From Thermoproteota archaeon (GTDB lineage: Archaea; Korarchaeota; JAOZGF01; JAOZFZ01): a stretch of 64,000 bases of DNA. Of this stretch, positions 7,333 through 10,776 are shown in pieces. Under the pieces are notes generated by a model. The model did no database searches. It was not told the origin of the DNA and saw nothing but the letters and a program-made list of their open reading frames with translations. The DNA lies in assembly GCA_027492035.1 (NCBI GenBank), contig JAOZFT010000035.1, forward strand, positions 62,001-126,000, given 5' to 3'. How positions within the stretch are numbered: position 1 is the stretch's first letter; each line of letters opens with the position of its first letter. The translations under genes were made by a program, and so were the position numbers.

Positions 7333-8805
7333 TCAGGCACCTTTCAAAAGCTCCTTTATTTTATATAGAAGAATCAATGATTTTCCTCCCTTTTTAGTTA
7401 TTTTCTTAACTGGGATTTTCAGTTCCCTGCTCAGTATCTCCAAAATTTTTGGTGTGCAGAAGCTTCCTTGGCACCTTCCCATCCCTGCCCTTGTTCTAAA
7501 TTTCACACCGTCCAAAGTTTTTGCTCCTCTTTTAATTGCTTCAACAACTTCAGCTTCAGTTACTTGTTCACATCTGCAAATTATTCTTCCGTAACCAGGG
7601 TTTTCCTTTATCATTTTATCTTGTTCTTCAGGAGGGTAATCAGTAAGTTTGTTTATTCTTTTTCTGTAAGGGTTAAAACTTCCCTTCCTTTCAAGTTTTA
7701 ATCCTTCCTTTCTCAGCAGCTCTGTAACCATTTTAGCTATTGCAGGTGCAGCTGTCAAGCCAGGAGACTGTATACCTGCAACGTTTATGAAACCTTTAAC
7801 TTTTGTTCTTTCAATTACGAAGTCTCCCTTTTCAGAAGCAGCTCTTACTCCTGCGAAGCAAGTTATTATTTTTAGGGGAAAGTCAGGAAACAAAACATTG
7901 TAAGTGTTAATTATCTCCTCTATATCCTTTCTAGACACTGAAGTATCTTCTTTACTTCCTGTTTCCTTTAGATTAGGTCCCCATAAGGGGTTCCCTTCAA
8001 CTGTTAATAAAGCCCCTCCTCCCTTTGTTCTTGGATCCTGCTTAATTTTAGCTTCTGCAACATAGTGTCTGTAATATCCTCTAAGTTTCTTATCAAAAAC
8101 AATCATGCACCCTTTCCTAGGAACTATTTTAAAGTTTCTTACACCGGCTGTTTCAGCTACTTCATCTGAATAAAGACCTGCAGCATTAACAACGTAACTT
8201 GTTTCAATTACTCCCTTATTTGTTTTTACTCCCTTAACTTCTCCATTCTCAACTAACACCTCCTCAACTTTTGTTCCGAGTAATGTTTTCACTCCGTTCT
8301 TTTGTGCATTTTCAATCAAGGCGAAAGTTAATTCATAAGGGGAAATAACTCCACCTGAAGGGAAAAGGAGTGCACACTTAGCTTTATTTGTTAAATTAGG
8401 TTCAACTTTCCTTAGCTCCCTTTTATTAAGAAACTTAACCTGTATCCCTCTCCATTTCATCACTAAATAAACCAAGAAAAGAAAAAATGTTTCTTTCCTG
8501 TTTAAAGAAACGAAAAGTAAACCACAACGATTAAAAGGAACATCTAGCTCCTCAGTTAACTTGTCCATTAATTTATTACCTTCAACACAAAGTTTTCCCT
8601 TCAAAGAATTAAAAGGGGTAACGAAAGGGTGGATAATGCCTGAACAACCCTTACTGGCGCCTTGGCAGAAATCAACTTCTTTTTCAACAACAACTACGTC
8701 CACTTTGTATTTAGAAAGCTCCCTAGCTATACTGCACCCTACAACTCCACCTCCAACTATTACAACATCTGTTTTTAAAGAAGGTTTCAAAAAAAATTTA
8801 GACAA
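7333..8805 (-). CDS. glpA: Glycerol-3-phosphate dehydrogenase-like FAD protein with BFD [2Fe-2S] domain
   Basis: A 490-residue protein with an N-terminal FAD fold (VVIVGGGVVGCSIARELSK), a DAO-type core, and a C-terminal BFD-like domain with IICRCEQVTEAEV and GMGRCQGSFC, whose four cysteines would hold a [2Fe-2S] cluster. This is the GlpA-type layout that oxidises sn-glycerol 3-phosphate to DHAP. The start is TTG, preceded by AAGGGGGGA. It is the first gene of a six-gene operon (this gene, oxidoreductase, DUF1667, glpK, AGPS-like, Fe-S CCG protein). Related 2-hydroxyacid dehydrogenases share the fold; the glycerol kinase next door supports the present call. Confidence 0.82.
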   Translation of the reverse strand: MSKFFLKPSLKTDVVIVGGGVVGCSIARELSKYKVDVVVVEKEVDFCQGASKGCSGIIHPFVTPFNSLKGKLCVEGNKLMDKLTEELDVPFNRCGLLFVSLNRKETFFLFLVYLVMKWRGIQVKFLNKRELRKVEPNLTNKAKCALLFPSGGVISPYELTFALIENAQKNGVKTLLGTKVEEVLVENGEVKGVKTNKGVIETSYVVNAAGLYSDEVAETAGVRNFKIVPRKGCMIVFDKKLRGYYRHYVAEAKIKQDPRTKGGGALLTVEGNPLWGPNLKETGSKEDTSVSRKDIEEIINTYNVLFPDFPLKIITCFAGVRAASEKGDFVIERTKVKGFINVAGIQSPGLTAAPAIAKMVTELLRKEGLKLERKGSFNPYRKRINKLTDYPPEEQDKMIKENPGYGRIICRCEQVTEAEVVEAIKRGAKTLDGVKFRTRAGMGRCQGSFCTPKILEILSRELKIPVKKITKKGGKSLILLYKIKELLKGA

Positions 8806-8814
8806 AAAATCCCC

Positions 8815-9165
8815 CCTTAAAAAATTTTACGCTAACATTTCTCGCCAAGACCCAGTTTACACAGGTTTTGGTAAGCCTATGTAAACTTTGGTGTGCATCA
8901 GCCTCTTCTCCCTCCATTTCATTGGGAGTAAGTCATAGGTTCCGCACCCTTTCATGAAGCCTTTTCAGAGTTCTTATAGATGTGCCTTTCCGTCTTTCCA
9001 TAAACCTCACCAGTGGTCTCGAAACTAAATGGCAAAAGATGCTTGGACTCTAGGAGCCTACATCCCCTAAAATATATACCTACTACTCTAAATAACTGTC
9101 TATCGAGTGTAGCCTACATCTGGAGGTGCTTAACCACCTATCCCTTTTCGAAGCTTCATTAACAT
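8815..9165 (-). ncRNA. Structured region upstream of glpA: candidate leader RNA or independent ncRNA
   Basis: This stretch has no convincing gene, yet looks richer in G+C than its AT-rich surroundings. On the minus strand it contains a 12-bp hairpin (AGTTTACATAGG, 10-nt loop, CCTGTGTAAACT, one G-U pair; 8854-8887), a CTCCC/GGGAG stem and an AGGTG/CACCT stem (9122-9137 region). The 10-mer AGCCTACATC occurs at 9055-9064 and 9111-9120. On the minus strand it ends in an oligo-T run (about 8814-8820) just before the glpA ribosome site. It could be a long 5' leader controlling the glycerol operon or a separate RNA. I found no match to RNase P, SRP RNA or tRNA motifs. A frameshifted gene remnant is the main alternative. 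Confidence 0.35.
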
Positions 9166-10062
9166 GTATCTACACACATATTTTTTAATGTAAGGTTAAA
9201 TTATTTCTAAAAAGGTTTTACATGGCTTATTTTCCTCAATAAGGATTTTAGAAGAGATTTTCAGTTCCTTTTCTCTGTCTCAGATTGCTTTTAATATTAA
9301 AATAGTTTTTTATAACGTTTTTACTATGTTCTAAAACTCCTAATTTATGTTTTACAGTCCTTATACGTAAATGCTTATGCGATTTCTTTCTTAAATCTAA
9401 TGCTTTCTGGTTGGTAAAAACCCTGCAGAAGATCTATTTAGTGTCTTTTCACAATTTTTTTGGCTTTCTTAAGAATGAACAAAGTATTTTATGGTTAACA
9501 AGCTTTACCCTGGATTCGTAGCTCATGAACTGGGCTATTGCCTTTCAGTTCTGTTTAGCAATGCCCTTATTATGTTTCTTTCCTTTGGTGTACCTTCCTA
9601 CTTCTCTAAATTCTTAAAACCGTGTCCAATATCAGAAATAATCTAAACATTAACCACATAATTTAATGTAGAAAGTCTCTAACCCTCGCCTCTTTCCCTT
9701 CCTACCTGCTTCTGAATAATCTTAATATCTTTCCATCTTTTTACTTACTAAGTATTACATTCGCTTAATAAATATTCGCAGTTTCATCTAATTTGTTTTC
9801 TGAACAGGTTAAAAGTAAAAAACCAGGTTAAAAAAGGAATTTATAGAAAAAGAAACGTTGCTGATGCTTTTCTTAAAAAAATTGAAAAATTTCCTGATCT
9901 GAAAATGTAAAAAAGCCAATAAAGACAACTCTGTCACTCTTCAGTTAAACAATTTAAAAAGAGAAACCGCAAAGATTTCTTGTTCAGAGGAACTGTTCAG
10001 GTAGAAAAGGAGGAATTCCTGGGTAGGAATTAAAAATAGTTTTAGGTTAAAAAAAGAAAAAA
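9166..10062. other. Intergenic stretch without a supported gene
   Basis: About 900 bases of AT-rich sequence hold no open frame with a start, ribosome site and protein-like composition. A short plus-strand stretch around 9790-9910 reads like a fragment of a basic protein but is closed in all frames within about 120 bases. It may be decayed sequence. The minus-strand promoter for the structured region would lie near 9165-9200 (AT-rich, no clear TATA box). Confidence 0.5.
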
Positions 10063-10776
10063 TTACCTCATGTATGAAGCAATCGTTTTTATCCCATGTT
10101 TATTGGCTTCCTTCTCAGCTGAAGGGTGAATAAGAAATCCAAACATGAATTTGTATACTTCTTTACCTTCAAACAGCCTACTTATTTTATTTAACTTCAA
10201 CAAGAACTCCCTTACATCTCTTCCATAAATCCTAGACTTAATTTCGCCCAATATGTAAATGTTTCTTTGTCTCCTCATCCCCTCACCGTAAAGGTTCACC
10301 TCTACAATTTCACCATCCACTTCAAAAAACTTTCTTACGAGACCCTTCACATAAATTTTTTCATGTCTCTCAAGCCAACCTGGAACAACAACTCTTGCAA
10401 TGTCTTCAAGGCCGAAACCTATAACATCACTCAATCTACCCACACTTAATGATAAATTATTCATTTGAATAGCTAATTTTGCAACAGCTTCTTCTGTTTT
10501 CTTTTGTGCTTCTGCTAATTCATTTACTCTTTCAGTTAATTTATCTACTCTTTCAGTTAATTTTGCAACAGCTTCTTCTGTTTTCTTTTGTGCTTCTGCT
10601 AATTCATTTACTCTTGTTGCTAGCCTGTCCAGATTTTCTGCGATTTTCGTTACTTCATTTGATAACTTATCAAACTCTTCTCTCCTAACTTTTATATCTT
10701 TCACTTCGTCTTTTACTATTTTAACAATCAGGCTGTAAAGCTCAGGTGACAAAGACATGTTCATCAACTGAAACAA
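10063..10776 (-). CDS. Coiled-coil protein with C-terminal PD-(D/E)XK nuclease-like domain (DUF3782 type)
   Basis: A 237-residue protein. Residues about 10-110 form a heptad-rich coiled coil with two identical copies of RVNELAEAQKKTEEAVAKL. The C-terminal half has GEIVEVNLYG followed by NIYILGEIKSR, which fits the D-(x)-ExK core of restriction-like nucleases found in the archaeal DUF3782 group. Such proteins are common in hyperthermophile archaea and often lie in mobile or variable regions; their role is unknown. The frame opens with TTG; ATG codons at residues 5 and 7 are equally possible, as no ribosome site is clear. It stands alone between two long gaps. Confidence 0.7.
   Translation of the reverse strand: MFQLMNMSLSPELYSLIVKIVKDEVKDIKVRREEFDKLSNEVTKIAENLDRLATRVNELAEAQKKTEEAVAKLTERVDKLTERVNELAEAQKKTEEAVAKLAIQMNNLSLSVGRLSDVIGFGLEDIARVVVPGWLERHEKIYVKGLVRKFFEVDGEIVEVNLYGEGMRRQRNIYILGEIKSRIYGRDVREFLLKLNKISRLFEGKEVYKFMFGFLIHPSAEKEANKHGIKTIASYMR
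10475..10615 (-). repeat. 57-bp perfect direct repeat inside the coiled-coil gene
   Basis: Positions 10475-10531 and 10559-10615 are identical over 57 bases, 84 bp apart. The period equals 28 residues, exactly four heptads, so the coiled coil stays in register. Identity at the DNA level, including third codon positions, points to a recent duplication. Confidence 0.9.

Follow-up and report, generated by a model that had tools for sequence, protein, structure and literature searches.

What is the structured stretch that lies immediately in front of the glp operon? Here, the window is the whole stretch of DNA that was analyzed, 64 kb in length. A preliminary description of it singled out 8815-9165, a region of higher G+C content with a hairpin, a repeated 10-mer and oligo-T tracts, and proposed that it is a leader with regulated termination, an unknown riboswitch or a stand-alone RNA. 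We conclude that this stretch is very probably the decayed 3' end of an IS607-type tnpB gene together with its omegaRNA scaffold, i.e., the relic of a dead transposon. Thereby, an apparent leader RNA is accounted for as transposon debris. The features discussed below are all on the minus strand:

7333-8805, minus: glpA-like gene for an FAD oxidoreductase with a BFD [2Fe-2S] domain, the downstream neighbor of the remnant
8827-8846, minus: expected guide segment, the 20 nt 3' of the scaffold, placed from relatives
8847-8994, minus: omegaRNA (reRNA) scaffold, 75.2 bits with a covariance model (R1) built without the window
8854-8887, minus: terminal hairpin of the omegaRNA, found by model match, fold and stem search, and identical to the 12-bp hairpin noted at the outset
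8871-9801, minus: IS607-type tnpB pseudogene, approximately residues 224-427 of a 432-aa homologue, with many indels and stops and a truncated 5' end
9055-9064, minus: second copy of the 10-mer, aligned with the KMCGF codons of TnpB
9111-9120, minus: first copy of the 10-mer (GATGTAGGCT, 5' to 3'), aligned with the TnpB zinc finger at its second Cys-Gly
9180-9483, minus: AT-rich sequence of ~290 bp that breaks up the tnpB remnant, from local alignment
9484-9624, minus: best-kept tnpB piece, approximately residues 270-317, 79% identical to the homologous copy

Sequence signals and a decayed tnpB gene

Most of the signals first noted in the region are real. The G+C content is 0.425 in 8800-9099 compared with 0.255-0.32 just past 9100; the 10-mer AGCCTACATC occurs twice, at 9055-9064 and 9111-9120; and the minus strand carries T6 runs at 8824-8819 and 8809-8804, right ahead of the TTG start codon of glpA (8805). 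The 12-pair stem at 8854-8887 is present on the minus strand, which is the strand of glpA, while the plus-strand arms, as read from the sequence, contain one C-A mismatch. The window contains 14 comparable stems on the minus strand and 6 on the plus strand, and four shuffled sequences contain 5-11 per strand. On its own, the hairpin is not rare, and the hairpin, the 10-mer and the T runs are weak signals if each is taken alone. Nor does the region fold as a unit. The fold of all 351 bases is not significant compared with shuffled sequences (z −1.44; 10 of 100 equally good), while that of a core of 120 bases (8847-8966) is significant (z −3.36; 0 of 200 shuffles as good); a signal is also obtained for 8847-8994 on the plus strand (z −2.70). 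The boundaries differ from those first noted, with the RNA scaffold at 8847-8994 and degenerate tnpB coding sequence in the upstream half of the region and onward to ~9801.

The origin of the region became apparent when its DNA was compared with G000, the genome that contains the window, and with 60 relatives: one other genome matches (G001, from the same family; 67% identity, E 6e-5). The match is to the 3' end of a gene encoding a TnpB of 432 aa, and this gene adjoins a transposase gene. The transposase has a Resolvase domain (PF00239) and scores 141 bits against NF033518 (cut-off 110), identifying it as an IS607 serine transposase; the homologue in G001 is thus part of an IS607-type arrangement. 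The G001 TnpB carries the TNB domain (PF07282) and scores slightly below the cut-off of NF040570 (94.5 against 100 bits) and far below that of NF038280 (39.2 against 350 bits).

Local alignment to the G001 gene is colinear from ~9801 to 8871 and is interrupted by many indels and an AT-rich stretch. When the G001 TnpB was searched against the 61 genomes, 9484-9750 (minus) matched residues 229-317 with five stops (E 1e-10). In a separate comparison, 8972-9049 matched residues 367-392. The pseudogene is homologous to the RuvC and zinc-finger region of TnpB. The catalytic Glu of the RuvC FENL motif, which is invariant in three homologues, is replaced by Lys in the window (HGFKNLEK). With this substitution, the five stops and the absence of the region of the first Asp, the locus has no open frame with the RuvC D-E-D residues of a functional nuclease. 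In the alignment, both copies of the 10-mer fall within degenerate Cys-Gly codon contexts of tnpB. A search for further copies of the AT-rich sequence at 9180-9483 gave nothing significant in G001 and, in the rest of G000, a match of 34 bp only, and a search of the window for a transposase remnant was negative.

A decayed protein gene had been named in advance as the result that would speak against an RNA, and TnpB homology with stops and indels is what we found. At the same time, the prediction of a structured RNA, for which covariation had been proposed as the check, is borne out by covariation among relatives and by the match of the window to a model made without it. The two results are compatible, since the omegaRNA and the end of the tnpB gene share sequence.

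The omegaRNA scaffold and its known counterparts

R1 is based on 11 of 17 scaffold sequences that were cut out from relatives; two near-duplicates (L123 and L124), one sequence lacking the 5' part (L132) and three too divergent for alignment (L086, L090 and L091) were left out. The structure in R1 is an initial one that includes an additional small hairpin; it was later revised to a five-helix structure in the light of the thermodynamic fold. In the 64 kb of the window, R1 finds 8847-8994 on the minus strand with an E-value of 6.3e-20, and the runner-up reaches 6.3 bits (E 2.6). Covariation among the 11 relatives is 0.297 compared with 0.143 in shuffled alignments (0 of 500 as high); among 12 sequences including the window and with the five-helix structure, it is 0.388 compared with 0.211 (0 of 500), slid versions of the structure give at most 0.148, and 20 of the 33 pairs have changed on both sides. 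For 35 distinct copies aligned with the model, the values are 0.397 and 0.162, with an alignment that leans toward the model. When the core in the window is folded without constraints, the outer helix, long middle arm and terminal stem all appear. In the relatives, the 3' ends share a scaffold that closes with the terminal hairpin and a GAACCCC-type strand, beyond which the sequence varies from copy to copy. In G001, the scaffold overlaps the 3' end of tnpB. Together, this is the conserved, covarying scaffold at the tnpB 3' end, or right end of the element, by which an omegaRNA is recognized.

In published descriptions, the omegaRNA scaffold extends to the element's right end and the guide lies beyond it (PMC10278001), and an archaeal TnpB has its scaffold at the tnpB 3' end (PMC10640517). 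The position and layout of the scaffold described here match these. R1 also matches the end of an IS607 element annotated in Methanocaldococcus sp. FS406-22 (plasmid pFS01) across the end of the TnpB ORF (63.8 bits, E 1e-17) and, weakly, the tail of ISSis5 from Sulfolobus islandicus (12.3 bits, E 0.0047). As in these archaeal IS607 TnpB elements, the scaffold detected by the same model lies at and beyond the tnpB 3' end, and its last strand, ACCCC, is paired with GGGGU farther upstream; the window differs from them in being a diverged copy with the outer helix AAGGCU/GGUCUU and a dead tnpB. The sotRNAs of haloarchaeal IS200/IS605 elements (RF02656 and RF02657) are likewise described (PMC12558985) as structured sense RNAs over the 3' end of an archaeal tnpB; however, they belong to another sequence family, and neither the window nor seven relatives reach the Rfam cut-off. 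RAGATH-18, the reRNA of bacterial IS607 TnpB, is also an IS607 TnpB guide RNA, but it is reported to be independent of the coding sequence (PMC11061315), in contrast to the overlap in G001, and it has no Rfam match here. More generally, the window and the seven relatives reach the cut-off of no Rfam family, and at E-values up to 10 the window has chance-level matches only. R1 therefore provides a covariance model for a group of archaeal IS607 omegaRNAs that falls below the Rfam cut-offs for the window and these seven relatives.

We suggest the following history. An IS607-family element, comprising the serine transposase TnpA and the RNA-guided nuclease TnpB, would have inserted upstream of the glp operon and on its strand. 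The 3' end of the element would have encoded an omegaRNA with a scaffold overlapping the end of tnpB and running to the right end, with the neighboring host DNA as the guide, which on this model is the segment at 8827-8846. In living elements, according to the cited papers, the RNA binds TnpB and directs cutting at a site matched by the guide, which is thought to help to keep the transposon. The element may once have been active in this way. Its 5' part and the tnpB frame would then have been lost, leaving a tnpB pseudogene and a diverged scaffold that can still fold.

Spread of the RNA family and fate of the scaffold

R1 has matches in 16 of 31 genomes, with up to 29 in one. In G000, a second pair of dead tnpB and omegaRNA is present (C20:90676-91089, with four stops; RNA at 91052-91171), as well as a solo omegaRNA between two unrelated genes (C34:18313-18419, corresponding to L156:1501-1607) with an intact terminal hairpin and a GAACCC end. 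The RNA family accompanies tnpB and not the glp genes, and it occurs at many unrelated locations in related genomes; based on this distribution, the RNA belongs to the transposon family.

Some copies of the family stand apart from tnpB. By hand count, 20 of the 29 matches in one genome (G006; e.g., C1:623671-623794) have no TnpB match nearby and are orphan scaffolds. In another (G016), three near-identical copies (L117, L123 and L128) have differing downstream sequences and no adjoining TnpB match, and from their sequences they look like small non-autonomous elements bearing the scaffold. With so many copies lacking a TnpB in related genomes, the idea that orphan guide RNAs serve TnpB in trans becomes testable.

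The scaffold in the window is most likely a dead remnant and would be inert at present. The alternative that comes closest is that its transcription has continued after the death of its own tnpB and that a TnpB, either of its own lineage or of a newcomer, uses the RNA in trans, or that it functions as a free regulatory RNA. The significant fold of the core and the frequency of solo copies in relatives such as G006 are consistent with this idea. In addition, although the scaffold is only 67% identical to the G001 copy, which is below the best coding piece (79%), 24 of the 27 modelled pairs are kept compared with a mean of 18.6-19.0 when the observed 3' substitutions are re-dealt (P 0.003-0.004). 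This test uses a structure-fitted alignment and pools changes before and after the death of the gene, and the divergence may predate that death. This retention could reflect constraint on the RNA itself. However, we reason that under a transitions-only null, retention of the outer helix would be unremarkable, at about one in two. We also discounted compensation in the outer helix as strong evidence: a MAFFT alignment leaves two pairs of this helix unformed in the window, and all of its pairs are present only when the alignment is fitted to the model. Moreover, no intact TnpB was found in the G000 assembly (93% complete), in which a search with the G001 TnpB gave two matches, both with stops, and the five TNB-domain matches have open frames no longer than 74 aa. 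The predicted 20-base guide, at the position expected from relatives, occurs once in this assembly at up to three mismatches, namely, at the locus itself, and thus has no second target there. Given the structure-fitted alignment and the undated changes, we consider a retained function of the scaffold possible but unlikely, and its present use as a guide or regulatory RNA is very improbable. Slightly less probable still is that the orphan scaffold was kept by selection after the death of tnpB as a free-standing RNA at the glp operon, either as a trans guide for TnpB or as part of the glp leader.

The glp operon and other RNA candidates

The idea of a leader or riboswitch was raised at the outset. 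The scaffold shares the strand of glpA and ends 41 bases before its start codon with the T6 runs in between, as would be expected of a riboswitch or attenuator of the operon. However, a riboswitch would be kept upstream of homologous operons. We ran R1 on 18 loci with glpA homologues, comprising that of the window, 11 of 13 found in the phylum (with ~1.5 kb of flank, shorter at contig ends) and 6 of 80 found in named genomes (with up to 4 kb). Among the 17 other loci, R1 matches one, on the opposite strand and with another gene in between. The nearest genomes, G001 and G002, gave no glpA match at an E-value of 1e-30, so that this comparison covers relatives other than the closest. In addition, no Rfam family is matched at its cut-off and the RNA family follows tnpB rather than the glp genes. 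A regulated leader of the glp operon is therefore very unlikely. The single match (L183:223-368, in G022) is probably a coincidence: it lies upstream of the glpA homologue at a distance of ~1.1 kb, and this genome has seven copies of the omegaRNA.

Finally, another known structural RNA in diverged form, such as RNase P RNA, a tRNA or an rRNA, can be dismissed almost entirely: such RNAs are often G+C-rich islands in AT-rich genomes of thermophiles, but the TnpB homology and the lack of an Rfam match contradict this origin. RNase P RNA is encoded elsewhere in the genome (C9:317374-317663; RF00373, 151.8 bits, above cut-off), and a tRNA search of the window found none. This RNase P RNA marks the organism as an archaeon, as would the putative methanofuran-type genes mentioned below.

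Elsewhere in the window, 10063-10776 encodes a coiled-coil protein with internal repeats (VDKLTERVNELAEAQKKTEEAVAKL) that matches only coiled-coil-type families, below cut-off or nearly so. The list of open reading frames in the window also includes genes that we take to be of the methanofuran type.
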